Shown here in pieces: positions 6,208 through 24,101 of a stretch of DNA of 64,000 nt. The stretch covers positions 248,001 to 312,000 of the forward strand of contig NZ_CP050300.1 in NCBI RefSeq assembly GCF_014189505.1. Direction: 5' to 3'. Under the pieces are notes generated by a model, which saw nothing but the letters and a program-made list of their open reading frames with translations, ran no database searches and was not told the origin of the DNA. A program made the translations under genes and the position numbers. Each line of letters starts with the position of its first letter. The stretch's first letter is position 1. The stretch is from Phyllobacterium sp. 628. GTDB taxonomy: Bacteria > Pseudomonadota > Alphaproteobacteria > Rhizobiales > Rhizobiaceae.

Positions 6208-7941
6208 TCAAAGGAAGCGAACACTGCTTTCCTGCGAAACAACATAAACCCGTAGCGGCAATGCCCGGCCACGAATTGCCACCTCGCGAACTTCGAGCCC
6301 GGCAATGTCAGACCCTGCCAGCACGATTGTCGGCTCCGACACCACCAGCGTTGCATCAAATTCCTTGGCGACAGTTTCCAGACGGCTTGCCACATTCACC
6401 GTATCGCCAATGGCGGTCAGGCTCTTGACCGCGCCATAACCCATCGCGCCAACAATGGCAGGGCCCGTATGAATTCCGATAGCGACGCGCAAGGGAATGG
6501 TGAGCTCCGCCGCCAGTTCAGCATTCAGCCGCTCGATTTCCCGGATAATCAGCGCGGCGGCCTTCAGCGCATTGCTACAGCCATCGGCGGTCGAACCGGT
6601 GAGGCCAAACAAGGCCATGGCACCATCACCAATGAATTTGTCCAGCCGCCCGCCCGAACGTTCAACCGCCTGACCGACAATGGCAAAATACCGATTGAGC
6701 AGGAAAACGATGTCATAGGGCAGACGGGCTTCAGTGAGCATGGTGAAACTGCGGATATCGCAAAACAGAACGGCGATTTCCCGTTCGCGGCCCGGACTTG
6801 CCTGCTGGCTTCCGGCCGGCACGATACTTTCAAGGCTGGGCACCAGCAGCGGCACGACGCTGATATCATGGGTCGGATGCAACTGGCAGGCGAGTCGAAC
6901 CCCATGATCAGCGCCGATACGGGTGAGCGTCGCCTGCTCGATAGGCTGGGGTGGCGGCAATGTCTCCGCACCTTCAAGCACCTGCACCCGGCAGGTTGAA
7001 CAGCGGCCTTTGCCGCCGCAGACGGCATAATGCGGTATGCCCCCAAGACGGCTGGCTTCGAGCACACTGAACCCGAGGGGAACCCGCACGCTTTGACCGT
7101 CGGCATAGCGGATGGCAATCTGGCTTGCCCGTTCGCGCCAGTGGCGGCGGAAGCGAAGCGCAAGAACCAGTGCTAACGCGCCCGCATAGGATCCAAAAAG
7201 ACCAACCTTGATATAAAACTCATCATTTTTGACTTCTATGCGCTCGGCAGGAGAGGCGTAACGCGTTGAATTATAGCTCTTATGCCCCTGATAACCGGAA
7301 GAAGGAAACTCGCCATAGCCGGAAGCGGGCGACATATTGGCAATCGTACGCCCCGTATTGGCAAAGCCGAGCAAGGCAAGAACCGGCAGCAGAATGGCTG
7401 CCGTCAGCAATACCGGCGCTGCCTGCTGATACCATTGCCGGTAGCGCAGCCAGAAGTGAACCCCGATGCAGCCATGACACCAAATAACAATCAGCGCGAC
7501 CGTCTGCTTGATACCGTTGAAAGGCGAGTTGATCCAGAAGCCGCGAATGATCGTTTCATAACTGTCATAGTAATTGGAGATCTCGTAGCGAATGCGCGTG
7601 CCGACTACATGTTCAATGATCAGCATGGGTATGAGCAGCCCAAGAATGATCTGCAGCGCTTCACCCAGCGGCATATAGAGCGTCCGGCGCGCATAGAGCG
7701 AGCGCATGACCAGAGCGACGTGGGTGATCGCAGCTCCGTAAAAGATCACCGTCCCGACAGGATTGCGCCAGATGAACAGAAACCAGCGGCGGCCTTCTTC
7801 AGCCGCTGCGAGCGAAATCAGGTTGAGCGAATGATTGGCGAGATGCAATGTCAGGAATGTGAGCATGATCAGGCCGGATAGCAACCGCGCCCTGCGCAGG
7901 GATCGCTCGGAAACAATGGGCGCTGCTACAGCTATCGTCAT
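6208..7941 (-). CDS. cyaC: CyaC-type membrane adenylate cyclase with ferredoxin domain
   Basis: A 577-residue class III adenylate cyclase. Order of parts: a six-helix membrane anchor (residues ~20-265) carrying membrane histidines (LTLHLANH, AAITHVAL, LIIEHVVG, VIWCHGCIGVHFW); a [2Fe-2S] ferredoxin domain with CGGKGRCSTC and a later LACQL cysteine (~275-365); and a cyclase domain (~380-570). The cyclase domain has metal aspartates in FCDIRSFT and FIGDGAMALFG, adenine-selecting Lys (DKFIGDG) and Asp (IGDTVN), and the Asn/Arg pair in TVNVASRLE. This matches S. meliloti CyaC, reported as a quinone-responsive diheme-b, iron-sulfur adenylate cyclase. Function is therefore likely redox-gated cAMP synthesis. 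Confidence 0.85.
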   Translation of the reverse strand: MTIAVAAPIVSERSLRRARLLSGLIMLTFLTLHLANHSLNLISLAAAEEGRRWFLFIWRNPVGTVIFYGAAITHVALVMRSLYARRTLYMPLGEALQIILGLLIPMLIIEHVVGTRIRYEISNYYDSYETIIRGFWINSPFNGIKQTVALIVIWCHGCIGVHFWLRYRQWYQQAAPVLLTAAILLPVLALLGFANTGRTIANMSPASGYGEFPSSGYQGHKSYNSTRYASPAERIEVKNDEFYIKVGLFGSYAGALALVLALRFRRHWRERASQIAIRYADGQSVRVPLGFSVLEASRLGGIPHYAVCGGKGRCSTCRVQVLEGAETLPPPQPIEQATLTRIGADHGVRLACQLHPTHDISVVPLLVPSLESIVPAGSQQASPGREREIAVLFCDIRSFTMLTEARLPYDIVFLLNRYFAIVGQAVERSGGRLDKFIGDGAMALFGLTGSTADGCSNALKAAALIIREIERLNAELAAELTIPLRVAIGIHTGPAIVGAMGYGAVKSLTAIGDTVNVASRLETVAKEFDATLVVSEPTIVLAGSDIAGLEVREVAIRGRALPLRVYVVSQESSVRFL

Positions 7942-8208
7942 GAATACCGGTTCAGCTCCTGTATCCTCTCAGCCATGATTGCACGTGCCTCTTCCCAGCT
8001 TCGCCTTAAGTTTATGCGAGCGCGGCTGATTTGGCGATACAGACACGAGTGGTCAACCGCTATGATGGCTTTTTGACAGAAAGACCAGCGAAGCAGGATC
8101 AAAAGATTGTTAGTGCCTGTGAACGGCAACCCGTTATAGATTACCGGGAATCGGCTTCGCTGCGCCGAAATGGCTGAAACGATTGTAAAAACACTGGATT
8201 GCGTGCGG

Positions 8209-9303
8209 ATGCAGGTCGCCTTTTACGCTCCCCTCAAGTCACCCAACCACGGGGTTCCGTCTGGCGACCGGCAAATGGCGCGCCTGCTGGTGGCTGCCCT
8301 GCAGATGGCCGGGCATAGCGTTGAGGTGGTTTCAGAGCTGCGCAGTTTTACCAAACAGCCGGATTTTGCCGAACGTCAACGCGTTGCGGTGGCGGCCACG
8401 GAAGAGATAGCGCGCCTTACCGCTCTCTGGCAAACAGCCGCGAAGCCCGATCTCTGGTTCTGCTATCATCCCTATTACAAGGCCCCGGATTTAATCGGTC
8501 CGCCGATGGCCGCCGCTCTAGATATTCCCTATGTAACTGCAGAAGCCTCCTATTCGCCGCGCCGTAACGCTACCGGTTGGGCCGAGACACAGATACTTGT
8601 GGCCGAAGCGGTGCGTCAGGCCGCCGTCAATATCTGGTTCACCCAGCGTGATCAGAATGGTCTCGCCGCAAACATCCCCGGCGCACGGTTTGCGCCGTTG
8701 AAACCGTTTATCGACGTAACGCCCTTCGGCAATGGTCAAATTGCGGACAATCCGCATCGTCTTGTCACCGTGGCAATGATGCGGCCGGGTGATAAATTGC
8801 ACAGCTATGAGATGCTCGCCAAATCGCTTGCCTTGATCAAGGACAAGCCTTGGACGCTTGATGTCATCGGTGACGGTCCGCAACGGGAAACTGTGCAGTC
8901 TTTGTTTTCCTGCTTCGATCCCCGCCGGATAAATTGGCTGGGACAACGGAACGCTGACCAGGTTACCGCGTTGCTTCTTAAGGGCGGCACCTATGTCTGG
9001 CCCGGATGCGGCGAAGCCTACGGCATTGCCTATCTTGAAGCTCAGGCGGCAGGACTGCCTCTGGTAGCGCAAGCAACAGCTGGCGTACCTGAAGTGGTCA
9101 ATGACGGTGTAACCGGCTTTCTGACGCCAGAAGGCGATGTCGGGGCCTATGCCAAAGCTGTAGCCGAAATGCTGGATGACCAGGGCAAACACCGGATCAT
9201 GGGTTTGGCCGCCCGGCGCTTTATAAGGGAAGAACGGTCGCTGGAGGTCGCAGCGGTGCAGCTGGACAGGCTGCTGAAACATTCAATGGGACGGAGCCAA
9301 TGA
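8209..9303 (+). CDS. Glycosyltransferase family 4 (GT-B fold)
   Basis: About 364 residues with the start placed at the ATG at 8209 (MQVAFYAPLKSP), because the family opens with this beta strand; the in-frame ATG at 8170 adds 13 unlikely residues. The C-terminal nucleotide-sugar domain shows GCGEAYGIAYLEAQAAGLP with the E-x7-E motif of retaining GT4 enzymes, then GVPEVVNDGVTGFL. It overlaps the polysaccharide deacetylase gene by 4 bp (ATGA), so the two are translationally coupled and probably act on the same glycan. Donor and acceptor are unknown. Confidence 0.8.
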   Translation: MQVAFYAPLKSPNHGVPSGDRQMARLLVAALQMAGHSVEVVSELRSFTKQPDFAERQRVAVAATEEIARLTALWQTAAKPDLWFCYHPYYKAPDLIGPPMAAALDIPYVTAEASYSPRRNATGWAETQILVAEAVRQAAVNIWFTQRDQNGLAANIPGARFAPLKPFIDVTPFGNGQIADNPHRLVTVAMMRPGDKLHSYEMLAKSLALIKDKPWTLDVIGDGPQRETVQSLFSCFDPRRINWLGQRNADQVTALLLKGGTYVWPGCGEAYGIAYLEAQAAGLPLVAQATAGVPEVVNDGVTGFLTPEGDVGAYAKAVAEMLDDQGKHRIMGLAARRFIREERSLEVAAVQLDRLLKHSMGRSQ

Positions 9304-10064
9304 CAGAAGACCCAATCTGGCAACCCCTACAGGCAGAACTTGCCCGCTGGATACATGCCAATCGCAGTGCCAAATTCTGGCTGCGCGATGATGATGCCGT
9401 TGAACCAACTCCCGCACTCGATCAGCTTCTTCAGCTTGCCAACGACTTCAAGGCCCCCGTGACGCTTGCCGTTATCCCTGCCCATACGGGCGAGCCGCTG
9501 GCTGAGCGGTTGGGGGGTGAGACACAAATCTCTGTTGCCGTGCATGGCTGGAGCCATGAAAATCACGCAGCCAAAGACAAGAAAAAGCAGGAATTGGGGT
9601 CCGATCGCCCGGGCGATCTCGTGTTGGGACAGCTCAAGCAAGGTTGCGCGCTGCTGGCCAAACTGCATCCGGCACGTTTTGTGCCCGTTCTTGTGCCACC
9701 ATGGAACAGGATCGATGCTGCTCTGGTGTCGTCACTCGGTGAATGCGGTTTTAGAGTGCTTTCAGTGTTTGGTCCGGCGTCCAAGTCTGCAGCCGGCTTG
9801 CCCGCCATCAACACCCATGTTGATCTGATGGACTGGCATGGAACCAAAGGCTGCCGCGATCATGCGGAGCTGGTGAATGCGCTTGTCACGGAGTTGAAAA
9901 AACGCATTGATGGCAATGACGAGCCTATCGGTATCCTCACCCATCACCTCGTACATGATGAGTCAGCCTGGATATTTCTGAAGAAGCTCTTTCAGGTCGT
10001 GGCTAAAACCCCCGGAGGGCGCTGGCTCTCCATCAATGATTTGATGAAGAGCCAAAAGCTTTAG
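9300..10064 (+). CDS. Polysaccharide deacetylase-like protein
   Basis: A 254-residue NodB-like (CE4) protein. Visible motifs are FWLRDDDA (metal/catalytic Asp region, residues ~23-30), HGWSHENH (the HxxxH metal-binding motif), VPPWNR and a late ILTHHLVHDE. Together they support a metal-dependent de-N-acetylase fold, although the motifs are divergent from classical chitin deacetylases. No signal peptide is visible, so it would act in the cytoplasm on a lipid-linked or nucleotide-linked intermediate. It overlaps the GT4 gene upstream by 4 bp and the convergent hydrolase gene by 4 bp. Substrate not identifiable. Confidence 0.75.
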   Translation: MTEDPIWQPLQAELARWIHANRSAKFWLRDDDAVEPTPALDQLLQLANDFKAPVTLAVIPAHTGEPLAERLGGETQISVAVHGWSHENHAAKDKKKQELGSDRPGDLVLGQLKQGCALLAKLHPARFVPVLVPPWNRIDAALVSSLGECGFRVLSVFGPASKSAAGLPAINTHVDLMDWHGTKGCRDHAELVNALVTELKKRIDGNDEPIGILTHHLVHDESAWIFLKKLFQVVAKTPGGRWLSINDLMKSQKL

Positions 10065-10891
10065 AGATCGATGATTTGCCCGTCGCGGGCGGCAAAAGTG
10101 CCCGCAAACCTCTTTTTGGCCAGCTTTTCGAAATGATCGATCTCGTCATCGGTGCGCGAAGGCGCGTGATGAAAGAGGGCGAGCTGGCCGATTTTACCTG
10201 CCGCTGCCAGTTTGACACCGTGCTGCCATGTGGAATGGCCATAGCCGAACCGGCGCGGCATTTCATCTTCCGTGTAGGTGCAGTCATAGACAACCAGATC
10301 AGCACCCTCGATCAGCCCAAGCACCGCCGGATCAAGAATACCAGCTTCGTGTTCGGTATCGTAAATAAGCGCAAGGACCTTCCCCGCCCATTCAATCCGG
10401 TAACCGATGCAGCCGCCGGGATGATTGAGACTGTCTGTCCGGATTGTGATGCCTTCACGCGGGCTCAGAACATCGCCCGAGGTGAAATCACGAAAACCAA
10501 GACAAGCCTTGCAAATATCCGGCTCAACCGGGAACCAAGGCGGACGCATGAATTGCTTGACGATCTCGCGCGTTGTCATGATCCCGGCGAGATGGCCGGA
10601 CCACAGCCGCACATTCATCGTCGGATTGTAGATCGGCGCAAAATAGGGAAGACCGATAATGTGATCGTAATGGCTATGGGTGAAAATAACGTCGAAGTCA
10701 GTTATGCCTTCCGCAGACAAAGCATCACCTGCCTGACGCAGACCGGAGCCCGCATCAAAGATCAATCTATGTTCACCGCAACGCACCTCGATACATGACG
10801 TGTTTCCGCCGTAGCGCTGAAATTCAGATCCGGATACTGGGATACTGCCGCGCGTTCCCCAGAATTTCACCCGAAATACATCGTTGTTCAT
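10061..10891 (-). CDS. Metallo-beta-lactamase-fold hydrolase
   Basis: A 276-residue MBL-fold protein of the PhnP/COG1235 type. It opens with KFWGTRGSIPVSG and GGNTSCIEV, and carries the metal motif THSHYDHIIGLPYF (HxHxDH), a further histidine in NHPGGCIGYR, and metal-ligand candidates in VYDCTYTEDE and GHSTW. Relatives cleave phosphodiesters, including cyclic nucleotides and phosphonate-pathway intermediates, so a nucleotide or sugar phosphodiester substrate is plausible. Given two cyclase genes and a cyclic-nucleotide-binding protein nearby, cAMP breakdown is worth considering, but that is inference. Read divergently from the calcineurin-like phosphoesterase gene. Confidence 0.75.
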   Translation of the reverse strand: MNNDVFRVKFWGTRGSIPVSGSEFQRYGGNTSCIEVRCGEHRLIFDAGSGLRQAGDALSAEGITDFDVIFTHSHYDHIIGLPYFAPIYNPTMNVRLWSGHLAGIMTTREIVKQFMRPPWFPVEPDICKACLGFRDFTSGDVLSPREGITIRTDSLNHPGGCIGYRIEWAGKVLALIYDTEHEAGILDPAVLGLIEGADLVVYDCTYTEDEMPRRFGYGHSTWQHGVKLAAAGKIGQLALFHHAPSRTDDEIDHFEKLAKKRFAGTFAARDGQIIDL

Positions 10892-11091: not shown

Positions 11092-12861
11092 ATGCCTTTG
11101 TCCCAATTTCCACCCATAGCCGTCATCGCAGATGCTCATTTTCACGACCTTTACGGTGATTATGATTTCGCCGGAATAGATGTTGGCGGCAAGCGGATGA
11201 CGGCACGGCGGCTGACCGACACAGTCCGGTCAACCCGTGTTTTCAACGAAAGCTATCATGCGCTGCGAGGCGCCCTTGATGCAGTGGTCAGGCGCGGTAT
11301 CAAACATGTGGTCCTGCTCGGCGACTATTCCGATGACGGGCAGGCCGCAACCTTGAACGCGCTTGGACGACTACTGGACACCTATACAACCGATCATGGG
11401 CTGATTTTCATTGCCACGCCGGGTAATCACGACATTTTCGGCCCCAAGGGCAGACACCATGCCAAACGCCTGCTCAATCCTGATGGCACCTACACCATCG
11501 TTGCCAGCGACAGTGCGTTCATCGACGAGGATGCCGACGGCATGGTCGTTACCGGCAAAATGTATTGTGATGGTTATCCTAATGGCTTGCAGGCTTTGCC
11601 CGGTCTCGGCTTTTTCCGCCGCGCCAGTGATCTTCACTGGGAAACGCCTTTCGGCGCCGACGATGATCCCGCAAAACGGCAATACACCGTGCACTCGGCA
11701 GACGGGCTGAACGAATACCAGCTCATGGATGCGTCCTATCTGGTCGAACCTGTTCCCGGACTTTGGTTACTGATGATCGATGCCAATGTGTTCGAACCAC
11801 GGGATGGCCATTTCGAGCGCGGCGATTCCGGTGCCTTTATCGACAGCACCAATGCCGGCTGGAATGGCATGCTGAAACACAAACGTTTCATCCTCGACTG
11901 GATGCAGGATGTTGCGGAGCGGGCAAAGAACGAGGGGAAAACGCTGCTCGCCTTCTCCCATTACCCGATGCTCGACATAATGGACGGAACGCATGGGGAC
12001 GAGAAAAACCTGATCGGCAATACCAGCGCCGTACGCCGTACACCATCGGCCGATGTTGCCGCCGCCGTTATGAAAGCCGGTATACGGATACATTTCAGCG
12101 GTCATCTGCATGTCAATGACACGGCCCGTGTACAGGAAAAAGCCGCATGGCTGGTCAATGTTGCAGTGCCATCCCTCGTGGCCTTTCCACCTGCTTTCAA
12201 AGTACTGCAACTGGACGGGCAGAACCTGAATGTTGAGACCGTCTCCATGGACGATCTGCCGATAGATCCTGTGCTCAATAGGCAATACCGCACCGAAATC
12301 AGCCTCACGGGCAAGAAAACCGGCAATATGCTGGATGCGGCAAATTACGGAGACTTCATCTCGGAACACGTGGACCAGCTTGTGGTGCATCGCTATCTCA
12401 GGCGCGAGTGGCCAGCCGATCTGGCGCGGATACTGCCATTGCTGAGCCTTGGCGATCTGTTGACACTCAGCCTGTTCGAACAGCCCGTGGAAACAGATAC
12501 CGCTGTTGTTCTTGTCCACGCCGAGCGCGGCAGGCCTGAAACCGCAGCACGATTGGAAACGCTTCTTTCAGACACGGGCATCAGTCTTCAGCAACTCGAT
12601 GTCTTTCCCGTTCTGCTGCTTCTAGGCGACTGGTATCGTTTGCGCATGGGCAGTGAAATGGCACTCGATCGCATAGCCGTATCGACCCTTGGCATTTACA
12701 GCGTGCTGATAGACGTTTTCGCCCGCTCCAATGCAATCGGCAGGGGCGGGGCGCAGGCTCAATTTGCGCGGCTGTTCCGCATGATGGCCAATTATCTCGA
12801 AGGCCTGCCATCACGCGACTTCAGGATCGATCTGGCAACTGGCGAGATCGGTACTTTCTGA
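11092..12861 (+). CDS. Calcineurin-like metallophosphoesterase
   Basis: A 589-residue protein with all core motifs of the calcineurin-like family: DAHFHD near residue 14, GDYSDD near 83, GNHD near 109, SHYPM near 291 and GHLHVND near 337. The C-terminal ~230 residues have no motif I recognise. There is no clear signal peptide. The family hydrolyses phosphomonoesters or diesters (nucleotides, cAMP, lipid-sugar phosphates), and the substrate here is not evident. It stands alone on the plus strand and converges with the cyclic-nucleotide-binding gene (10-bp gap). Confidence 0.8.
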   Translation: MPLSQFPPIAVIADAHFHDLYGDYDFAGIDVGGKRMTARRLTDTVRSTRVFNESYHALRGALDAVVRRGIKHVVLLGDYSDDGQAATLNALGRLLDTYTTDHGLIFIATPGNHDIFGPKGRHHAKRLLNPDGTYTIVASDSAFIDEDADGMVVTGKMYCDGYPNGLQALPGLGFFRRASDLHWETPFGADDDPAKRQYTVHSADGLNEYQLMDASYLVEPVPGLWLLMIDANVFEPRDGHFERGDSGAFIDSTNAGWNGMLKHKRFILDWMQDVAERAKNEGKTLLAFSHYPMLDIMDGTHGDEKNLIGNTSAVRRTPSADVAAAVMKAGIRIHFSGHLHVNDTARVQEKAAWLVNVAVPSLVAFPPAFKVLQLDGQNLNVETVSMDDLPIDPVLNRQYRTEISLTGKKTGNMLDAANYGDFISEHVDQLVVHRYLRREWPADLARILPLLSLGDLLTLSLFEQPVETDTAVVLVHAERGRPETAARLETLLSDTGISLQQLDVFPVLLLLGDWYRLRMGSEMALDRIAVSTLGIYSVLIDVFARSNAIGRGGAQAQFARLFRMMANYLEGLPSRDFRIDLATGEIGTF

Positions 12862-13368: not shown

Positions 13369-16084
13369 TTACGATACGAGCTCCTTGAATATACCATTTT
13401 TCTCCAGAAGAGTCGCGTGTGTTCCGTCTTCGACCAATGTACCCCGGTCGAAGACAAGCACCCGATCAAACAGGTTTGCCAGCGACGAATTAGCCAGCAC
13501 CCAGATAATCGCGGGCGCATGACCCTCCTCATGCAGGTTCTGCATGACATTGCGGGTAATCTGGTCCTGTACACGCTGGTCCAGCGCGGGCAGGGGCCGG
13601 TTGAAAATCACGTAATCGGATCGCTTGAGCAGGGCTCTGGCAACATTGATCTTCTGCCGCTGCACATTTGTCAGCCGCTTGCCGCCCGAACCGACATCGA
13701 AATCCAGACCGATGGACAGAACACTGTCATAGACGCCCAGCTCATCGAAAAGATCGCGCAGGATCACGCGAATACGCTCCGAACCGTCAGCCTGCGTGTA
13801 CCCGATCCTGCCGAACAGCACATTGTCCATCAGACTTGCCGAGGCGATGAATTTCTTGGCGTCATAGCGCTCGATGACCGCTTTCAGATCATCCGGCAGG
13901 TTCTTGTGAAACCGGATGCGGGCGTCAACAATCTTGGCCATCAGCTCATCGGTCAGCAAACCGAAACGGTGCCTTGGTTCAACATAGGCAAAACTCAAGC
14001 GGATGATGCTCGAGCGTTCATCGGGCGAAGCGGCCTCGAAATCCCGGCCTTGCAACTTTTGCAGCAGCAGTTGATAAGCCGGGATATCATCAGCCGTCAT
14101 GAATGTAAGCTGCTGGAAGAACGGATGATCCGGCGGCAGATCCTCGAACAGTTCGATCGCATTGGCAGCAATCTCAAGGCCCATCTTATACAGATCGATA
14201 TGAAGCCCGCTTTCCCGCAGGATCGAGCGGAAATACGGATGCGCGGCCAACTTGAGGTTCGTCATCATCGGCCGTTTCAGCGTACCGAACAGAAGGTTCT
14301 CGCCGATTGTCGCCTGCACGTTGTAAGCCTTGGGTTCAAATGGCACCACGAGGCTGTCCAAATCCTCTTCCTTGAGGCTTTTGCGCAAGGCTTGGCGCAA
14401 CTCGACGATCCGGCTGGTCAGATCGGCATGGGCTGTCGTATCGACCTGAGAACGCAGGGCAAGATCCATAATATCCTGCGAGATCATGACCGCTTCCAGA
14501 ACCGGGCGTATGGCACGGAACAGGTCATCCGGACCCGTGACACCCGCAGACGCATAGTCAACCCAGTCACTGTTCAGATCGAGTTCCGGGTTACCGGCCA
14601 GACGGGCTTCGTTGATATTCCACTTGTACCTGACGGCTTTTGCACCCTCGTACTCAACCTTCGTCAGCGGCGCATGTTTGAGGCCGTAGAGAAGGTTGTC
14701 GCGCAAAGTCCCATGGAAGAAATAGGCATCCGATGCCGCATAGGCGATGCGCCGCCCGGTGACCGATTCAGGCAGTTCGAGCAGATCCTTGCCGTCAATC
14801 GTTATGCGGCCGGACTCTGGCCAGATCAGACGGGCAAACGCTTCGGCAATTGCTTCACCGCCGCCACCGCTAGGCCCTACAATAGCAACCGTTTCGCCAA
14901 GCTTGATCTCAAGCGAGACGTGATCGACAAGGCGCGCTCCACTATCGTCGGAAAGTCGGAGATTGACCGCGTTGAGCGAATGTTCCAGCCGCCCGACAGG
15001 TTCATGCACAACGGCTTGAATACGCGGATCGACCAGCATGTCCACGTTGAACTGCTCAACAACCTGAGCATATTTGATTTGCACATCCTGACGGGACTGG
15101 TCCCAGTCAATGAGTTCCTTCAATGGACCCGGCAAATCCTTGTAGGCATTGATGACCGCAACCAGCTGTCCAATGTCCAAACGCCCCCTGCAAGGCAAGA
15201 ACACCGCCAATGGAATAAAACAGGAAGGGTGTGACCTGAGCGAGGAAGTTATTGATGAACTTGACCAAAAATTTCCACTGATAAAGATCATAGCGGATGG
15301 AAAAAATAAGGCCGAGGCGCGCAGCGATATCAGCGCGTTCGTAGTTCGATGTGTCATTGCCGTGGATCGTTCCGATCCCATCGACAATTTCACCAACCCG
15401 CCCGGAAAGCTCGCGCGCCGTCAGCTGGCGCTGACGCCCAAGATCGAGCAATTTTTTGCGCATACGCGGGATAACCACGCCTTGCACCGCAACGATGCCG
15501 GCGGCAATCATACCCAGCCAGAAATTCTGCAAAATGATGAAGACAAGCGCGGTAATCGCCTGTCCGCCAAGCAGTGCCGGCTGAACAAACGCATCTCCGG
15601 TAAAGCCGCCCATCGGCTCCACCTCGTCCTTGATCATCGTCGCGATTTCGGCCGATTTCACCCGCTTGAACTGAGCCGGCGGGAAACGCAGCACGCGGTC
15701 AATCAACTCGAAACGGATGCGGCGCAGCATGCGCTCGCCAAGGCGGCCCTTGTAGGTATTGATATAGAGCTTGAACAGGCCGTTGATGACGACCAGCAGC
15801 AGGAAAACCAGACTAAGCGCCATCAGCATCTGGAAACGCGTAAGTTGCAGTCCTTCGAAGAACATCACCTTGCCGAAATAGGGCAGATTGTACTGGATGC
15901 GCATGAACGTCTGGGTTGCGCCTTCCCCTTCGAATCCGGTGCCCTGTATGGGGCCATTGACTATCTGTTTCGGCAGATCGAACGACAGGAAATACGGAAT
16001 CATCGAGGCCGCAACAACCGTCAGGATCCATATTTGCTGGAGTCGCGTATTCGACCAGATATAGCGTGTTAGACTTTTTTCCAT
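13369..16084 (-). pseudogene. ABC-exporter-like protein with degenerate ATPase domain, frame-disrupted
   Basis: Reading from the ATG at 16084, the first ~298 residues are an ABC exporter membrane domain (LGERMLRRIRFELIDRVLRFP, then FYSIGGVLALQG). The frame breaks at a C5 run (15184-15188, G5 on the coding strand). Removing one base restores LALQGRLDIGQLVAV and gives a ~904-residue protein. The nucleotide-binding part is abnormal: Walker A reads GPSGGGGEA (no Lys), the signature LTNVQRQ replaces LSGGQ, Walker B reads YVIFNRPLPALD without Asp-Glu, and the H-loop is VLANSS. About 250 residues are inserted between the two halves of the domain. The frame break is probably a sequencing error; the lost ATPase motifs are not. 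Function unknown; it pairs with the cNMP-binding gene downstream. Confidence 0.7.
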
Positions 16085-16326
16085 GGGCAACCGTGAGCTG
16101 TGAAATAAGCTGAATTCGTAACTATTTTAATGGGTTATACGCGGTGAAATCCTCCTTGCTGAGACCGTGAGGCACAATAAAGTGGAGGGGAAATAGGCGG
16201 CAGTTCATAGATTTTACGGGATTGGCTGAAATCTCCCCAAACCTTTCAGATGTTCAGTTTACAACACGGGATGGATGAACGCTATACGCTTGCACCCGAT
16301 TGTATGGGTGGAAATCGGGTACAGAC

Positions 16327-17450
16327 TTAGAGCAGATTTCGCAGTATTTCCGCTGTCCGTTTTGCGCCATCAAGATCAAGACGGTGGTCCCCTGGTTTTG
16401 GCTGCCGCAATGACCGCTCAACCGCTTCCGCAAGCATAGCTGCGTTCAAGCCGCTTTCCGGAAGGGCAATAGCCAGCCCCAGCGCTTCCAGACGCGTGGC
16501 GCGCACTGTCTGTTCAGTTTCGCCGCCCGCAGTGAACGGCACAAGAATGGACCGGCAACCCGCCTGCAGCACATCGCAAACGGTATTGTACCCGGCCTGC
16601 GATATGGACAGCTCCGCCCCCTGAGCAGGGAAGGGAAGTCTCTGCGAAAACGCACGAGCGCAACATTATCCGGAGTCTGATCAGACAGTGCAGCAAAATC
16701 CGTTTCCGGCAAGTTGGGCCCGGTAATCACACACCATTTGCCGTGTGACGTGCGGGCTGCTTCAAGCGCCGAGCGAACGAGATCAAGCCCGACAGCACCG
16801 CCACCCGCCGAGACCACAATGTCGAAAATATCCGTTGGTATTGGCGCAACCGGCCCAGCAACCAGACCGGTGTAGACAATCTTGCCGGCAATGTCGCCAG
16901 CAAGCGGAAATGTGTCGGGTAGGGCGACAAAACCGGGATCGCCATGCACCAGCACATTGTCGAAATGCCCGTTGATAAGAGCAACCGTTTCTTGGTCACG
17001 ACCGGGCTTTGCCCGCTCCTGAAGAATATCCCTGACCGATGTCAGCAACTTCGGCCGGGGCGTTGCCGCTTGAATGGCATCAAGCAAAGGCAGCAGCTCA
17101 AAACGCATCTGGCGGCGGCCAAACGGGAAGGCTTCAATGATGACAATATCCGGTTGTACCCGGTGAAATGCCTGAAGCAGCAGGTCGCGGCGGTGATGAA
17201 GAAAAGCCTCGTCAACCGGCTTGCCCTGTTCGTCGGCCAATCCTGAAAATCCGGCATTGCTCGCAACAACAGCGGGGAGGGCAACTGATTTCACATTGGA
17301 ACCGGGAAAGCCCGGGACAGCCAGCCCGCCCGTTACCACAGTCACGTCAAAGCCGTCCTCAGCCAATGCCGAAGCTATGCGGCTGGCACGGGCCAGATGC
17401 CCGATGCCAAGCAGATGCTGGACGTAAAAGAAGACGCGGAGCGCCGTCAT
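16327..17450 (-). pseudogene. MurG-like glycosyltransferase (GT28 type), frame-disrupted
   Basis: Start ATG at 17450 overlaps the upstream GT4 stop (ATGA). The N-terminal half contains YVQHLLGIGHLARASRIASA, the glycine/His loop of GT-B enzymes. The frame breaks at a C5 run (16617-16621). With one extra G on the coding strand the sequence continues LLRGAELSISQAGYNTVCDV and then FTAGGETEQTVRATRLEALG, the acceptor-site and nucleotide-sugar signature of MurG-like enzymes, giving ~374 residues. The restored product is coherent over its whole length, so a sequencing error is the likelier cause. Substrate unknown; it belongs to a three-gene glycosyltransferase run. Confidence 0.75.
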
Positions 17451-18745
17451 TGTGTTTTCTGCCATTCGGTTTCAAACAGGGCGGTCAGTTGCCGGATGCT
17501 GGAATTGTGATCGAAATGTTCACGCACCCGCACTTCCGCAGCATCGCCAAGCCGGTGGCGCAGATCCGGTTCGCGTATCGCCCTTTCCAAGGCTGCTGCC
17601 AAAGCATGCGGCTCTTCGGGCGGAACCACAAAACCATTCTCGCCATCGGTGAGCAATTCGGGCACGCCCGAAATATTGGTCGAGATACAGACAAGGTTCT
17701 GGCTGGACGCCTCGACAAGCACGTTCGGCAGGCCGTCGCGGTCGCCATCGGCTGCGATCCGGCAGGCCAGCGCAAAAATATCGGCACGGCGATAGTGCTC
17801 CAGCACCTCTTCCTGCGCCAGTGCACCTTTCCAGGTGATGCGGTCAGTTATCCCTAGCTCTTTGGCCAATGGTTTCAGTTTCGCCAGTTGATCGCCGCCG
17901 CCAATGTGCACAAACGTCCAGTTCAATTCTGCAGGCAGAAGAGCTAGGGCGCGCAGGAGAATGTCGTAACCCTTCTTCTCCACGGCGCGGCCGACGCTCA
18001 GAATTTGCACCGAATCAGCTGCGCTGGAGCCATCGCGCTTCGACCGCACGGTGTTGAAATGACCAAAGCGCGCCAGATCAAGGCCGTGATAGCTCAGATG
18101 TACCTCGTCCTTGCGATCCGTCAGTTGCCGCATATGGTCGTAGCCACTACGGGTGCAGGTTACGCTCCAGCGTGCTTCCGCCAGCTTTTCCGTCAGTTCC
18201 CAATCCGGCGATGTCCAGATGTCCTTGGCATGGGCCGAACAGGTCCAGGGAACGCCTGTCAGGATGCTGGTATAGGCAGTTACAGAAGCCGGTGTGTGAA
18301 TGAAATGCGCGTGCAGCCATTCGCCTGCATCCGGCCATTCATGCGCCAGAACCAGTGCCTGTCCCAAACGGCGAAACCGGTTGCGGGTTACATCGCGTTT
18401 AAGATCAGCCCAGAACCGTCGCAAAAGTGGCTTGAAGCCCGGCTTGGACCACCCGGCAACAAGACCGCGCAATACCCGGAGCGGCTCGTCATGCAGATAT
18501 TCCGGCAGGTAGACAACCCGCGCCTTGATCTCGTCATGGATAGGATGGCGCTTCTTGTCCGTTGGCTTGCGCATGGAAATGAGCGTCAGGTCAAAACCGG
18601 CGCGTTCAAGCCCAAGCAGTTCCTGCGCAATAAAGGTCTCCGACAGGCGCGGATAACCCTTCAGCACCACCAGTGTTTTACGGCGTATCGGCAAAACAGT
18701 CTCTTTATTCAGCAACGGCAAGAGGTAGCTGCTGCTCGCGTTCAT
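17447..18745 (-). CDS. Glycosyltransferase family 4 (WcaL-like)
   Basis: About 432 residues. N-terminal domain opens VVLKGYPRLSETFIAQELLGLE, typical of colanic-acid WcaL/AmsK-type enzymes. The C-terminal domain has RAVEKKGYDILLRAL and DGDRDGLPNVLVEASSQNL, with the E-x7-E pair, then GVPELLTDGENGFVVPP. I start it at the ATG at 18745, which overlaps the preceding gene by 41 bp; a TTG at 18694 just after that gene's stop is an alternative. It would transfer a hexose to a lipid-linked glycan at the inner membrane. The glycan is not identified. Confidence 0.75.
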   Translation of the reverse strand: MNASSSYLLPLLNKETVLPIRRKTLVVLKGYPRLSETFIAQELLGLERAGFDLTLISMRKPTDKKRHPIHDEIKARVVYLPEYLHDEPLRVLRGLVAGWSKPGFKPLLRRFWADLKRDVTRNRFRRLGQALVLAHEWPDAGEWLHAHFIHTPASVTAYTSILTGVPWTCSAHAKDIWTSPDWELTEKLAEARWSVTCTRSGYDHMRQLTDRKDEVHLSYHGLDLARFGHFNTVRSKRDGSSAADSVQILSVGRAVEKKGYDILLRALALLPAELNWTFVHIGGGDQLAKLKPLAKELGITDRITWKGALAQEEVLEHYRRADIFALACRIAADGDRDGLPNVLVEASSQNLVCISTNISGVPELLTDGENGFVVPPEEPHALAAALERAIREPDLRHRLGDAAEVRVREHFDHNSSIRQLTALFETEWQKTQ

Positions 18746-19919
18746 CCAGCCAATCGCCAACAATCTTGGATATATGGACCAGCCCTTCCAGCCTCATACC
18801 TTCGCCCTTGCCGCTCTTGGATGGCGGCGCCCGATCAGGCAACCGTTTCAAGGCTTCGGCGAGAAGCAGCGGATCTTCGGCTTCTTCGGGCAGCAGCATA
18901 TCCACCAGCCCAAGCTCCGATGCGCGCTGGGCGCGGATCAGTTGCTCTTCGCGCGGCTGGACGCGTGGCACGATGAGCGCAGGCTTGTCGAAGGACAGGA
19001 TTTCGCAATAGGTGTTGTAACCGCCCATCGCCACCACGGCCTTGGCTCCGGCAATCAGCTCTTCCATGCGGTTATCGAACTCTATGACCTCGATATAAGG
19101 GATTTTGCCGCCCTTCTTCACCAGCTTGGCCCGCTGTTTTGCGGGCATGTAGGGTCCAAGTACGATAAACGCCTTGTGCTGCAGGGTAGGGTCCTGCTGA
19201 TAGGCGTGAATGACATTGTGAACGAGATCGGCACCATCGCCGCCACCGCCGGTTGTCACCAGAATATAATCGCCTTCCGGAACGTGGGTAGAAGCCTTGT
19301 CATGCGACAGGCTGCGCTGCAGGAAGCCGACAAACTTCATCTTGTCACGCACGGTCGAAGGCACATCCAGATCCAGCAGCGGATCATAAAAATCCGGCGG
19401 ACCATAGACCCAGATATTATCATAATACTGGTCGATCTTCTCCATCACATTGCTCTTCTTCCATTCGGCTTCGAGCAGATGCGGGGCATCCATCACTTCG
19501 CGCAGACCAAGCACCAGCGTTGTACCGCGTGATTTCAGATAGGCGAGGGTTTCTTCCGCTTCGCCCTTCAGGCCCATCGGTTCTTTGTCGACAATGAAAA
19601 TGTCGGGCTGGAAAGTTTCCGCCGTATGCCGGATGATGGACTGCCGCATCTTCAGCGTGTCGTGCAGATCAATATGCCGGGCTAGCGATGTATATTCGCC
19701 GTTACGCAGCTTGATCACGCTTGGCACCTTCACAAAATCCACGCGTGCACGGTAGTCGAACGCTCCGGCAATGGTTGCACCGGAGATGATGAGAATGTTG
19801 AGCCCGCGATAATCTTCGACAAGCGAATGGGCAATGGTCCTGCAGCGCCTCAGATGGCCAAGACCAAAAGTATCGTGGCTGTACATCAGGATCCGCGCAT
19901 CTTCAAAACGCCGCATCAT
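18705..19919 (-). CDS. MurG-like glycosyltransferase (GT28 type)
   Basis: About 404 residues, started at the ATG at 19919 (MMRRFEDARILMYSHDTFGLGHL); an upstream in-frame start at 19973 adds 18 residues of low quality. Landmarks are GLGHLRRCRTIAHSL in the N-terminal Rossmann domain, LVTTGGGGDG, and AMGGYNTYCEILSFDKPAL with the GGYN acceptor loop. It shares this layout with the disrupted gene at 16327-17450, so the cluster has two related enzymes. It is the first gene of the run and starts about 100 bp after the ABC permease gene ends. Substrate unknown. Confidence 0.75.
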   Translation of the reverse strand: MMRRFEDARILMYSHDTFGLGHLRRCRTIAHSLVEDYRGLNILIISGATIAGAFDYRARVDFVKVPSVIKLRNGEYTSLARHIDLHDTLKMRQSIIRHTAETFQPDIFIVDKEPMGLKGEAEETLAYLKSRGTTLVLGLREVMDAPHLLEAEWKKSNVMEKIDQYYDNIWVYGPPDFYDPLLDLDVPSTVRDKMKFVGFLQRSLSHDKASTHVPEGDYILVTTGGGGDGADLVHNVIHAYQQDPTLQHKAFIVLGPYMPAKQRAKLVKKGGKIPYIEVIEFDNRMEELIAGAKAVVAMGGYNTYCEILSFDKPALIVPRVQPREEQLIRAQRASELGLVDMLLPEEAEDPLLLAEALKRLPDRAPPSKSGKGEGMRLEGLVHISKIVGDWLDEREQQLPLAVAE

Positions 19920-20021
19920 GGTCAAAACCTCTTGAATACGATGTGCCGTTGCAGTCGGAACTGCACAGCACATTCGGAACGGCTGGGAGAATCCAAGTTC
20001 ATTGGCCTTTCAACTTTCCAC

Positions 20022-21197
20022 TTATCTGTAGGGATCGGCTGCGTCGCGCAACCCGTCTCCCAGAAAATTGAACGCCAAAATAACAAGAATAACCGGAATC
20101 ATCGGGAACAGCAGCCACGGATAGAAGGCGATAACGCTGACACTGCGTGCTTCGGTCAACAAAATACCCCAACTGGTGATGGGTGGCCGAAGGCCAAGGC
20201 CCAGAAAGCTCAATGCTGTTTCGCCAAGGATCATACCGGGTATCGATATGGTTGCGGTTGCGATGAGGTGCGACATAAAGCCGGGCACAAGGTGCCGGCC
20301 GATGATGCGTCCGCTCTTTGCGCCCATCAACTGTGCGGCGAGCACGTAATCCTCTTCCCGCAATGCCAGAATTTTGGAGCGCACCGCACGGGCAAGACCA
20401 GTCCAGTCCAGCATGCCGAGAATCAGCGTGATGCCAAAATAGATCAGAATTGGGCTCCAGGTCACGGGCATGATCGCCGCCAACGCCATCCAGAGCGGCA
20501 AGCTGGGTAGAGATTGAAGCACCTCGATGACGCGCTGAACAAGCAAGTCAAACCATCCGCCATGATACCCTGCCAGTCCGCCGATAATGATGCCGAGAAC
20601 GAAACTGATGGTGATACCAATAAGGCCAATGGTCAATGAGATACGCGCACCATAGATGATGCGTGAAAGCACGTCACGGCCAAGGCGATCCGTACCAAGC
20701 AAGAACATCTGCCCCCCTTTGGCGGGACAGACAAGATGAACATTGGTCGCCACGGCTCCCCAGAAGCGGTAATCATCGCCGCGGCAGAAGAAGCGCAACG
20801 GCTGCACATCGCTTTTGTTGTCGGTATACACGCGCTTCAGCGATTCCATGTCTACTTTCATTTCACGGCCGTAGACATAAGGCCCAATTAACTTTCCGTC
20901 ATGGAACAGACGGACCCGCTGTGGCGGGGAATGAATGAAATCAACATTTCGTGTGTGCAGGTTATAAGGCGCCAGAAACTCGGCAATGATGATCATGCCG
21001 TAGAGTGCGAGCAGGAAAATACCTGAGGCAAGCGCCAGCCGGTGGCGTTTGAATTTCCACCACATCAAGCGCAATTGCGAAGCAAGATGAATCTTGGCCT
21101 GCGCTTCGGTCATGGCCTCGATCGACATCGGGTCGAACGGAGCGGCGGAGACATAGTGCTGCAAAGGTGCACCGGGTTGTGGGAGCGGCAAAGTCAC
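20022..21197 (-). CDS. Peptide-type ABC transporter permease (DppC/YejE-like)
   Basis: A 391-residue inner-membrane permease. The start is a GTG overlapping the preceding stop (GTGA). The first membrane helix is near residues 55-75; then ~70 extra residues (SPPQRVRLFHDGKLIGPYVYG and on) precede the conserved GTDRLGRDVLSRIIYGARISL. The ATPase-coupling EAA loop is EEDYVLAAQLMGAKSGRII. The periplasmic insertion resembles that of YejE-type permeases more than plain DppC. Last gene of a four-gene importer operon. Substrate not predictable from this; peptides or oligosaccharides are both known for the class. Confidence 0.85.
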   Translation of the reverse strand: MTLPLPQPGAPLQHYVSAAPFDPMSIEAMTEAQAKIHLASQLRLMWWKFKRHRLALASGIFLLALYGMIIIAEFLAPYNLHTRNVDFIHSPPQRVRLFHDGKLIGPYVYGREMKVDMESLKRVYTDNKSDVQPLRFFCRGDDYRFWGAVATNVHLVCPAKGGQMFLLGTDRLGRDVLSRIIYGARISLTIGLIGITISFVLGIIIGGLAGYHGGWFDLLVQRVIEVLQSLPSLPLWMALAAIMPVTWSPILIYFGITLILGMLDWTGLARAVRSKILALREEDYVLAAQLMGAKSGRIIGRHLVPGFMSHLIATATISIPGMILGETALSFLGLGLRPPITSWGILLTEARSVSVIAFYPWLLFPMIPVILVILAFNFLGDGLRDAADPYR

Positions 21198-22192
21198 TTG
21201 GTGCTCCTGCCCTGCAAACGGATACGCGGATCGAGAAAGGCCAGTGCGATATCGGATATCAGCACGCCGATAACGGTGAGGAAAGCGAGGAACATTAGAA
21301 ACGAACCCGCAAGATACATATCCTGGCTTTGCAGCGCCTTGATCAGCATCGGCCCGGTCGTTTCCAGTGAAAGCACGATGGCCGTAATCTCTGCCCCCGA
21401 AATAATCGACGGGAGGATCGAACCGATATCAGCCACGAAAAAGTTCAGCGCCATGCGCAGTGGATATTTGACCAGCGTACGGAAAGGATGCAGCCCTTTG
21501 GCCCGGGCGGTCATCACATATTGCTTTTGCAATTCGTCCAGCAAGTTGGCGCGCAGACGCCTGATCATGCCTGCCGTACCAGCGGTACCGACGATGATAA
21601 CGGGAATCCACAAGTGAGCGAGGATCGACCGGGCCTTTTCCCAGCTCATGGGCTCGCTGAGATATTTCTGGTCCATCAGGTGGCCAATGGATGTGCCGAA
21701 CCAGATATTGGCAAAATACATCAGGATGAGCGCCAGCATAAAGTTTGGAATGGCAATACCAAGCAGGCCAAACAGCGTCAGACCATAATCGCTCCAGCTA
21801 TATTGATGGGTTGCCGAGTACATGCCGATGGGGAATGCGAGCAGCCACGTCACCAAGATGGTGCAGAACGATACGAGCACTGTCAGCCACAAGCGGTCTC
21901 CCACAACGGCGCTTACCGGCAGCTGGTACTCAAAGGAATAGCCAAAATCGCCCTGCAGCATGCCGCCGAGCCAATGGAAATAACGCAGCACCGGGGGCTG
22001 GTCGAAACCGTATTGGTGGCGAAGCTCCTCCATATCCTGAAGGTTTACCGTCTCGCCCTGCGCCTGCATTTCGGCGATCTGGCTTTCGAAGAAATTGCCG
22101 GGCGGCAATTCGATGATAACGAAAACGAGCGCTGAAATGATCAGCAGCGTCGGGATCATGGCGGCTATCCGCCAGAGAATATATCGCAGCAT
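21194..22192 (-). CDS. Peptide-type ABC transporter permease (DppB-like)
   Basis: A 332-residue permease with about six membrane helices. It begins MLRYILWRIAAMIPTLLIIS, the standard DppB/OppB opening, and has the EAA coupling loop QYVMTARAKGLHPFRTLVKY and an ending RIRLQGRSTK. It follows the substrate-binding gene by 4 bp and overlaps the second permease by 4 bp, so the two permeases are translated together and form the channel heterodimer. Confidence 0.85.
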   Translation of the reverse strand: MLRYILWRIAAMIPTLLIISALVFVIIELPPGNFFESQIAEMQAQGETVNLQDMEELRHQYGFDQPPVLRYFHWLGGMLQGDFGYSFEYQLPVSAVVGDRLWLTVLVSFCTILVTWLLAFPIGMYSATHQYSWSDYGLTLFGLLGIAIPNFMLALILMYFANIWFGTSIGHLMDQKYLSEPMSWEKARSILAHLWIPVIIVGTAGTAGMIRRLRANLLDELQKQYVMTARAKGLHPFRTLVKYPLRMALNFFVADIGSILPSIISGAEITAIVLSLETTGPMLIKALQSQDMYLAGSFLMFLAFLTVIGVLISDIALAFLDPRIRLQGRSTK

Positions 22193-22196
22193 CCGG

Positions 22197-24101
22197 TCAG
22201 CCCTCCTTCAGCCAGAAGGTGTCGGGCATATAGATTCCGAGATAGCAAGTCGGATCAAACCCGTAGAGGCCCTTCTCAGGGACATTCTGCAAACGGGATG
22301 ATCGCATGATGGGCTGCAACGTTCCGTTGACCAGCCCAATGGAGAACACTTGATCGGTGAAAATCGACAGCATCTTATGCCATATTTCCGTGCGCTCCTG
22401 CATATGCGCGGATTTGCGCCACTGGTGCTGCAGGGCAAGAAGCTCCACTGCCGCCGGCAGATCGGGCGCTTCACCATTCTGCCCGAGTGAAAGATAATGT
22501 CTGCCCCAGACCGGCCACTGGTATTGATCGTCCATGGTTGGGGCCAACTGTCCGGGATTCATATCCGGCGTAGCAACGCCATTGGCAATGCCATACCAGA
22601 TCGACATCATGATCCGGCCACCCTGCGCCCGGCTGCGGAAAATATCGCGCTGCGACGTGCGCGTGTACAGTGCCAGGCCAAGCTTGCGCCAATGATCCGT
22701 CACGAGTTCGAGTACGTCCGTATCGAGCGTACTCTCGCCGGGTGACTCTATTGTAATCTCAGCAGGGCGGCCATCGGGTAAAAGGCGGACGCCGTCATCA
22801 TTGCGGTTCTGCATACCCAACTCATCGAGCAGGGCATTGGCCTTATCAGGATTGTGTTCAATCCAGGCTTTGGCATATTCGGGTTTATAGAGCGGGCTTT
22901 CCGGCAATACCGTATCGGCACTTGGCGTTCCAAGGCCGTAGAATACCGCCATATTGATTTCGTGCCGGTCAGTACCCAGCGATAGGGCACGGCGGAAGCG
23001 CACATCCCGGAACAGATTACGCCAGCCATCATCCACGTAATTCAAATTGGGCACGATCGCAACGCGCGAGCCACGGATCATCTTCCACAGGTCGACTTTC
23101 ACCGGGTAACGTTTTTCCGCATCCTTCAGGAAGGTATAATCGGTGAAATCCACACCCGTCGCCTGCAGATCGCTTTCGCCTGCACCCGCCTTGGCCGGAA
23201 TGATTGACGATGAACTGACATTCAGGATGAAACGGTCGATATAGGGCAATTGCCGCCCATTCTCGTCCACGCGATGAAAGAACGGATTGCGATCAAAAAC
23301 AAATTGTTCGGCTGGCGACGTCGTTGTATTGACCCATGGATCAAGCACCGGCAGTTCCGGATTTTCCGGACGATATTGCCGCGCCATCTTGATGTGAAGG
23401 TCCGCCCATTTCTTGACCCGGTTTTCCTTCATCAGGGCCTGAAGCCGGAACTTGTCCTGATAGTCCTTGTGGAATTTCTTCAAATAGGCTGACGGGCCAA
23501 CAATAACCAATGCCTGCGGGGCAGCGAGCGTGGGAAGAAAGTCAGGGTTGGGCGCTTCCCAGGAATAACGAACCGTCAGCGGATCGATGACTTCAAACTT
23601 GGGCAGCTTTCCGTCAATACGCAGCTCAAGCGCACCACCACCCGGTGTCAAATCCGCATTCAGAAGGACATCATTCCACCAATAGCTGAAATCATCCGCG
23701 GTCAATGGCGAGCCATCAGACCATCTATGGCCTTCACGAATCCGGAAGGTGAAAACCGTATCATTTTCCGATTCGAACGATTCAAGCACGTCAGGGCGCA
23801 AGACAAGATGCTCGTCATAGCCGACCAGACGGGCATAGCCATAGATCGTCATGAAGCGGATATCTTTTCCGCTGCCAATAATGGTGCGGACTGTTCCGCC
23901 ATATTGGCCGGGAACACGGCCGATTTCCTTCATGTTGATGATACGCGGGTGCTTCGGCAAACGCTGTACCAGCGGCGGCAGGCTCGTGGCACGCAGCCGG
24001 TCTGCAAGGAATTCCGGCTCGCGTTCGCGATCGGCGGCCTTCACCGTAGCCGGCACCATGGCGGATGCGAGCACACCCAGGACCGTGCGCCGCGTTACCA
24101 C
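22197..24101 (-). CDS. Extracellular solute-binding protein, family 5
   Basis: A 634-residue periplasmic binding protein of the SBP_bac_5 class. The GTG start at 24101 overlaps the ATPase gene by 7 bp. The N-terminus is a probable twin-arginine signal ([13 protein letters not shown], then a cleavage site around ATVKAA). Family landmarks are FRIREGHRWSDGSPLTADDF, DVRFRRALSLGTDRHEIN and PNPDFLPTLAAP. At ~600 mature residues it is longer than DppA/OppA and similar in size to YejA and the binding proteins for larger oligomers. Ligand unknown. Confidence 0.85.
   Translation of the reverse strand: MVTRRTVLGVLASAMVPATVKAADREREPEFLADRLRATSLPPLVQRLPKHPRIINMKEIGRVPGQYGGTVRTIIGSGKDIRFMTIYGYARLVGYDEHLVLRPDVLESFESENDTVFTFRIREGHRWSDGSPLTADDFSYWWNDVLLNADLTPGGGALELRIDGKLPKFEVIDPLTVRYSWEAPNPDFLPTLAAPQALVIVGPSAYLKKFHKDYQDKFRLQALMKENRVKKWADLHIKMARQYRPENPELPVLDPWVNTTTSPAEQFVFDRNPFFHRVDENGRQLPYIDRFILNVSSSSIIPAKAGAGESDLQATGVDFTDYTFLKDAEKRYPVKVDLWKMIRGSRVAIVPNLNYVDDGWRNLFRDVRFRRALSLGTDRHEINMAVFYGLGTPSADTVLPESPLYKPEYAKAWIEHNPDKANALLDELGMQNRNDDGVRLLPDGRPAEITIESPGESTLDTDVLELVTDHWRKLGLALYTRTSQRDIFRSRAQGGRIMMSIWYGIANGVATPDMNPGQLAPTMDDQYQWPVWGRHYLSLGQNGEAPDLPAAVELLALQHQWRKSAHMQERTEIWHKMLSIFTDQVFSIGLVNGTLQPIMRSSRLQNVPEKGLYGFDPTCYLGIYMPDTFWLKEG

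Follow-up and report, generated by a model that had tools for sequence, protein, structure and literature searches.

The 64,000-nucleotide stretch of Phyllobacterium sp. 628 analysed here (the window; RefSeq assembly GCF_014189505.1, contig NZ_CP050300.1, positions 248,001 to 312,000) contains a gene for a relative of ATP-binding cassette (ABC) exporters whose ATPase motifs have been replaced. The source genome comprises 5.25 Mb on four contigs, and Phyllobacterium is a genus of Hyphomicrobiales. Judged from sequence, the ATPase motifs are gone, the replacements are conserved among relatives, a segment of the nucleotide-binding domain (NBD) has been triplicated, a cyclic-nucleotide-binding (CNB) protein is a regular partner, and class III nucleotide cyclases are frequently linked to the locus. 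We tentatively read the protein as an ATPase-dead membrane gate or switch, controlled by cyclic nucleotides and serving a glycosyltransferase locus, a reading that we consider quite possible and hold with reserve; its gating, ligand and substrate are what we infer from these features.

The gene is divided between two overlapping open reading frames (ORFs; Table 1). The 327-residue ORF matches the Pfam family PF00664 (ABC_membrane, 52.5 bits, cut-off 28), and the 675-residue ORF matches PF00005 (ABC_tran, 48 bits, cut-off 25), both above their cut-offs; an earlier note on this DNA had described the overall fold pattern as preserved. Phmmer links the pseudo-NBD to ABCB1 and other exporters, and the best NCBIfam matches are partial matches to MsbA-like exporters, far below their cut-offs. 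Homology of orthologs to the 675-residue ORF begins at about ORF residue 57, and intact orthologs continue unbroken across the frame change of the window.

The protein is thus kin by sequence to type IV (ABCB-like) exporters, yet the features that define their ATPase fail. In particular, the translated window has an A-loop (VNLRL) without an aromatic residue, a Q-loop (YAASD) without Gln, the signature LTNVQ in place of the consensus LSGGQ, and degenerate Walker A, Walker B and H-loop positions (Table 1). These readings confirm the replacement of the Walker A Lys, the signature, the Walker B Asp-Glu and the H-loop His that the earlier note had claimed. Retained elements comprise the D-loop ALD, an X-loop-like VGSGG, and the post-signature segment QRQKINVARAL. 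The further statement of the note, that the protein cannot be an ATP-driven pump, stands for a homodimer and not beyond it, because a partner ATPase could be encoded elsewhere.

The motif loss is not a chance event, because the first-round orthologs (n = 103) show the same replacements: none has the Walker A Lys, 3 have Arg at that position, and 102 have Asn for the Walker B Asp. Searches at class and phylum level added 56 proteins, for a full-length set of 159 members. Across this set, the Walker A Lys position is occupied by Ala (69), Gly (34), Lys (26), Arg (20), Thr (5) and Ser (5), and the Walker B Asp position by Asn (130), Asp (16), Ser (8) and other residues. Neither Lys nor Arg is present in Walker A in 113 members, 111 of which have the Walker B Asn. 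We defined a set of 111 by these two features (no Walker A Lys or Arg, and Walker B Asn), and therefore only the remaining columns of the alignment are independent. In those columns, none of the 111 has the H-loop His, the Q-loop Gln or the A-loop aromatic residue; the other 48 members have them in 11, 6 and 15 cases, respectively. Eight of the 111, and no member outside that set, have both signature glycines. The replacements also follow a pattern: the Walker B Asn is followed by Arg in 106 of the 111, and 108 have an acidic residue (Glu or Asp) at the Walker A Ser/Thr position. Loss across orthologs, on which the earlier note had made its claim depend, holds for the close relatives and is uneven in the wider family, in which 46 of 159 members keep the Walker A Lys or Arg and 5, all within the other 48, keep the Walker B Asp-Glu; the deep relatives L122, L143 and L149–L151 retain both Lys and Asp-Glu.

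A tree of the membrane domain was constructed by a quick method from 73 of the 159 full-length members, nine proteins consisting of the membrane domain alone, and five canonical exporters; the canonical exporters and several of the membrane-domain-only rows are long branches. The tree contains a 29-row clade (SH-aLRT 97) in which every member is without Walker A Lys or Arg and has the Walker B Asn, and 42 of the 44 full-length rows outside this clade keep Lys or Arg. Because there is a clade without Lys or Arg, and because deeper relatives have partial motifs, the fully dead state looks derived, and it looks to have been retained afterwards with conserved residues of its own.

The pseudo-NBD is enlarged by an insert of about 280 residues, absent from the earlier note, between the Q-loop and the signature, where five canonical exporters of the same genome (the five usable of nine own-genome stretches) show a gap of about 300 positions against the family profile. 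One motif type occurs three times, as TLRDNLLYG, ATIGENLLFG and ASLMDNVLFG. Profile–profile comparison of non-overlapping segments yields E-values of 1e-18 for the linker copies, 1e-11 for copies 2 and 3, 3e-8 for copies 1 and 3, and 3e-7 for copies 1 and 2. Control comparisons with 10 to 12 further segments of this alignment gave no E-value better than 0.008, except for one segment that overlaps copy 2 and gives 2.8e-5 and 7.5e-5, as a repeat predicts; the profile pairs S1/S2 and S2/S3 carry no evidential weight, because their segments overlapped. By these profile comparisons, the insert arose by triplication of the start of the helical subdomain.

The gene for the CNB protein lies 47 bp downstream of the stop codon of the ABC gene, on the same strand. 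In all 68 loci with full flanks, a same-strand CNB match (median identity 74%) starts 23–320 bp downstream of the ABC gene, and elsewhere the CNB domain is fused to the ABC protein; the link to a cyclic-nucleotide-binding neighbour that the earlier note had drawn from one locus is therefore real. Specifically, Pfam identifies pseudo-ABC–CNB fusions in Azospirillum lipoferum and Ruegeria (L113 and L114), and the CNB match lies inside an ORF of more than 600 residues in 15 of 171 CNB-matching loci (12 distinct genes after merging of overlapping stretches). A CNB homolog is present in the fetched stretch for 155 of the 159 members, and no match was found in the stretches of L145 and L149–L151. 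A longer stretch from the genome of L151 (L182) reveals a fused CNB domain, and for L145, L149 and L150 the match to the Azospirillum fusion reaches query residue 1014–1016, past the CNB domain at 911–996. At L116, L117, L120 and other loci, the ABC and CNB parts appear to be in frame with a stop codon between them, a state half-way between fused and separate.

The phosphate-binding cassette of the window CNB protein, GEIAILCDVLRTATV, keeps its Glu and Arg, and the pattern GE-x8-10-RTA[TS] is present in 149 of the 171 loci with a CNB match. Relatives with solved structures include the cyclic-nucleotide-binding protein 5d1i, CRP-type regulators, domains of PKA and PKG, and the channel SthK. A Thr after the cassette Arg is typical of cGMP-selective domains, which offers a lead to the ligand and nothing firmer.

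Thirty-three of the 68 full-flank loci encode a class III cyclase homolog, against none of 17 control regions of 20 kb. The window contains two of the nine PF00211 matches in its own genome. In Rhizobium johnstonii 3841, a cyclase gene heads a series of importer, glycosyltransferase, ABC and CNB genes, and Sinorhizobium meliloti RCAM1750 has the same series, with one hypothetical gene between the cyclase and importer genes and an opposite-strand methyltransferase gene preceding the ABC gene. The first window cyclase, with its membrane region, 2Fe-2S domain and class III cyclase domain, resembles CyaC of S. meliloti, which carries a 2Fe-2S cluster. In CyaC, a membrane domain of six helices is joined to a cyclase domain, and the activity tracks the redox state of quinones (PMC10463352). 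It differs in setting: CyaC (SMc01818) is preceded by the TetR-type gene smc01819, and the part of its published account used here does not mention an ABC-like protein (PMC10463352). In place of the DKFIGD motif of the first window cyclase, the second has LSFMGD, so that the purine-specifying Lys seems to be absent from it.

In the mechanism that we propose, the local cyclases would make cAMP or cGMP, which would bind a CNB subunit docked on the pseudo-NBDs; the ligand-bound CNB subunit would then shift the pseudo-NBD dimer and the coupling helices, and the membrane domain would thereby switch between two states. Gating by a second messenger would in this way replace opening and closing driven by ATP. 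The membrane domain could be a passive gate or flippase for the product of the neighbouring glycosyltransferases, or a switch controlling that product.

Several points weigh against this proposal. Members that keep the Walker A Lys (26 of 159) or Arg (20 of 159) also have the CNB domain, so that control by CNB would predate full motif loss and would not need it. A cyclase homolog is missing from the fetched stretch in 35 of the 68 loci, and the 17 control regions all come from one other Phyllobacterium chromosome. The pseudo-NBD could bind ATP weakly; a half-transporter encoded elsewhere could supply ATPase sites, with the signature glycines of the 8 members noted above in mind; and the CNB domain could, by analogy with HetC (see below), bind another ligand.

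An alternative that we regard as unlikely, though with substantial points in its favour, is that the protein is a membrane receptor or scaffold and no conduit, its membrane domain binding a lipid or glycan intermediate and its pseudo-NBD and CNB parts regulating or anchoring the glycosyltransferases or the importer. The company of the gene suits such a role, with three upstream glycosyltransferase genes in 56 of the 68 loci and importer genes in 44 to 53 of them, and the triplicated segment provides a new surface that could dock partners. The company is nevertheless not constant: Agrobacterium-type loci have ABC, CNB, metallo-beta-lactamase (MBL)-fold and cyclase genes, and the three glycosyltransferases were not seen in their fetched stretches or in those of several other loci. 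Because of these loci, the ABC and CNB genes are taken as the constant core. The membrane domain is, moreover, more conserved than the insert, which runs counter to a scaffold role.

It is rather improbable, in our estimate, that the protein is the inactive half of a heterodimeric exporter whose active half is encoded elsewhere, the signature region of the window protein completing the site of that active half. Heterodimers in which one site is degenerate are a familiar arrangement (e.g. PMC12038006), and the window protein keeps the post-signature helix and the D-loop, as 8 of the 111 keep both signature glycines. Against this, the constant linkage is to CNB, and no second exporter half is annotated beside the ABC gene in R. 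johnstonii 3841 (where the stretch ends within one ABC ATPase gene) or in S. meliloti RCAM1750 (where the other ABC genes belong to importer cassettes). Known degenerate halves also usually lose one site and not the Walker A, Walker B, Q-loop, H-loop and signature motifs together. A rebuilt site that still binds and perhaps slowly hydrolyses ATP, with CNB only tuning it, would agree with the Lys or Arg of the deeper members and the Asp-Glu of five; it is very unlikely in view of the 111 window-like members, which are jointly without the Walker A Lys, the Walker B Asp, the Gln, the His and the A-loop aromatic residue.

The 'restored' protein of 904 residues in the earlier note implies a frameshift, and the window gene is indeed split near 15.19 kb, with intact copies in relatives. 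When 16 window genes were set against loci from the same genus, two proved frameshifted, namely the ABC gene and its glycosyltransferase neighbour, and the other 14 are whole where compared. The two frameshifts hint at assembly indel errors or two recent mutations. An ortholog is present in 18 of 19 same-genus genomes (in a single frame in 17, split in G019, and not found in G014), and all named loci, retained as the best 80 of 565 candidate stretches encoding relatives, encode proteins of at least 880 residues.

We calculated ratios of nonsynonymous to synonymous substitution rates (dN/dS) for 15 of the 18 same-genus orthologs, excluding L006 and L015 (other length) and the split L019; 82 of the 105 pairs were usable, the remaining 23 having a dS that was undefined or very small. 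The ratios have a median of 0.042, a rough value because the median dS of 1.65 is near saturation; the unsaturated pair L002–L004 (dS 0.29) gives 0.016, and the two pieces of the window gene against L002 give 0.009 and 0.031. By region, dN/dS is lowest in the membrane domain (0.029), compared with 0.049 in the insert and 0.044 to 0.066 in the NBD parts. Conservation is strongest in the membrane domain and coupling helix 1, where the mean share of the commonest residue is 0.83 and 0.89, respectively, against 0.66–0.68 for the NBD parts and the insert. The orthologs are thus under strong purifying selection, which the earlier note had put forward for examination. A decaying transporter, its motifs lost as the gene dies and its frameshift part of that decay, would account for the broken copies in the window and G019 and the missing one in G014, and is almost certainly wrong for the family, in which neutral decay is ruled out by the intact orthologs, the dN/dS near 0.04 and the conserved replacement residues; for the window copy alone, a recent pseudogene is conceivable.

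The family occurs in Alphaproteobacteria, where 96 of the 289 genomes sampled gave a match at E ≤1e-50, a few of them in pieces, and a phylum-wide sample gives 28 of 398 at 1e-30, the sole match outside Alphaproteobacteria being a membrane-domain-only protein. Many annotated plasmid matches are labelled 'ABC transporter ATP-binding protein'. A gammaproteobacterium, Plasticicumulans lactativorans, has pseudo-ABC, CNB, cyclase, GT4 and deacetylase-like genes (L034:3771-6485), perhaps acquired by horizontal transfer.

Relatives consisting of the membrane domain alone occur at nine loci (L173–L181), in ORFs of 323–425 residues that end soon past the membrane domain and match that domain alone with 113 to 273 bits (e.g. 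L174:6516-7727). An inspection of the first 70 residues of each neighbouring ORF showed no ATPase gene alongside at eight of the nine loci (within the 3.2 kb available for L176); at L178, an ATPase gene is present within a separate importer cassette. Four of the nine proteins fall among the family in the tree and five beside it, a placement that is unsure because these rows are long branches in a quick tree. By eye, L173–L175 adjoin multicopper-oxidase-like genes and L176 a cytochrome-like gene.

Among the literature compared, HetC of Nostoc PCC 7120 is the closest described exporter–CNB protein: it is an ABC exporter joined to a CNB-type domain needed for function, with an essential ATPase residue, a C39 peptidase, and an N-terminal CNB domain that binds ppGpp in vitro (PMC10986499). 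The window family differs in being without ATPase motifs and in having the CNB part C-terminal or separate. Pfam found no C39 peptidase in either window ORF or in the two fused relatives scanned, and an identity as a HetC-kind, peptidase-containing exporter was rejected on this ground. MsRv1273c/72c, BmrCD, PatAB and TAP share the exporter fold and non-consensus residues at the nucleotide sites; in each of them one site stays active and the active partner is known, whereas a homodimer of the window protein would have both sites dead, and no linked partner was seen in the loci. CFTR and SUR are ABC exporter folds turned to gating or regulation, and both bind and use ATP; the window protein, in contrast, lacks the residues that contact ATP, and its link is to a sensor of cyclic nucleotides. 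MsbA2 of S. meliloti (SMb21191) is likewise a rhizobial ABC exporter, and its gene shares an operon on pSymB with glycosyltransferase genes. Identity with it was rejected by position: the fragment of the msbA2 operon that ChvI binds maps to about 938 kb on pSymB (PMC3687685), and the S. meliloti ortholog of the window gene at about 842–844 kb.

A search of the open-licence PMC literature by title and start of abstract found no paper on the family. A stronger proposal, which is possible and on balance somewhat unlikely, is that of a gate family in which a second messenger wholly replaces ATP, with local cyclases producing the ligand, a docked or fused CNB part sensing it and an enlarged pair of dead NBDs passing the signal to the membrane domain, in a series that ends with proteins without NBDs. 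ABC transporters are defined by ATP hydrolysis, and the hyphomicrobial branch of this family has lost that chemistry and is linked to the sensing of cyclic nucleotides. With members that range from nearly intact to fully dead, and relatives reduced to the membrane domain, the family allows the conversion of an ATP-driven machine to another use to be tested. S. meliloti has 28 adenylate cyclases, and how their signals stay separate is unclear (PMC10463352). The family provides a concrete candidate for a membrane effector of cyclic nucleotides.

The coordinates of the gene, its motifs and its neighbours are given in Table 1. The importer cassette (20025-25984) travels with the glycosyltransferase and pseudo-ABC genes, with a median identity of 70–87%. 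MBL-fold, deacetylase-like and GT4 genes are present in 35 to 37 of the 68 loci. The MBL-fold neighbour shows a weak NCBIfam match to a cyclic-nucleotide phosphodiesterase (34 bits, cut-off 400) and a partial match to RNase Z in the PDB. A metallophosphoesterase gene, at 11092-12858 on the forward strand between the CNB and MBL genes, was found in 10 of the 68 loci.

Table 1. Features of the window around the ABC-exporter-like gene (window coordinates)
Feature	Position	Strand	Basis or remark
ABC-exporter-like gene, whole	13369-16084	-	two overlapping ORFs, 327 and 675 residues
N-terminal part: most of type IV exporter transmembrane domain, first frame	15185-16084	-	ORF 15107-16090
C-terminal part: end of membrane domain, then pseudo-NBD with insert, second frame	13369-15190	-	ORF 13369-15396
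Degenerate Walker A, GPSGGGGE (consensus GxxGxGK[ST])	14854-14877	-	translated window
Insert of about 280 residues, Q-loop to signature, repeats of helical-subdomain start	13849-14688	-	profile–profile comparison
Repeat motif 1, HGTLRDNLLYGL	14680-14715	-	
Repeat motif 2, QATIGENLLFGT	14281-14316	-	
Repeat motif 3, SASLMDNVLFGR, copy running into signature	13807-13842	-	
X-loop-like segment (VGSGG) and degenerate signature, DVGSGGKRLTNVQ	13660-13698	-	translation and conservation
Degenerate Walker B (VIFNR; consensus hhhhDE) and intact D-loop ALD, YVIFNRPLPALD	13579-13614	-	
H-loop position, VLANS, without His	13486-13500	-	translated window
Stand-alone CNB protein, 149 residues	12872-13321	-	PF00027, 74.4 bits
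Class III nucleotide cyclase, CyaC-like, membrane region and 2Fe-2S domain	6211-7941	-	Fer2 and Guanylate_cyc
Second class III nucleotide cyclase	27082-28419	-	PF00211, 31.7 bits
Module glycosyltransferase, frameshifted relative to five same-genus loci	16330-17465	-	
GT4-type glycosyltransferase of module	17450-18745	-	
GT28-type glycosyltransferase of module	18708-19973	-	
Oligopeptide-type importer cassette: two permeases, binding protein, double ATPase	20025-25984	-	
GT4, polysaccharide-deacetylase-like and MBL-fold genes, linked in about half of loci	8170-10891	.

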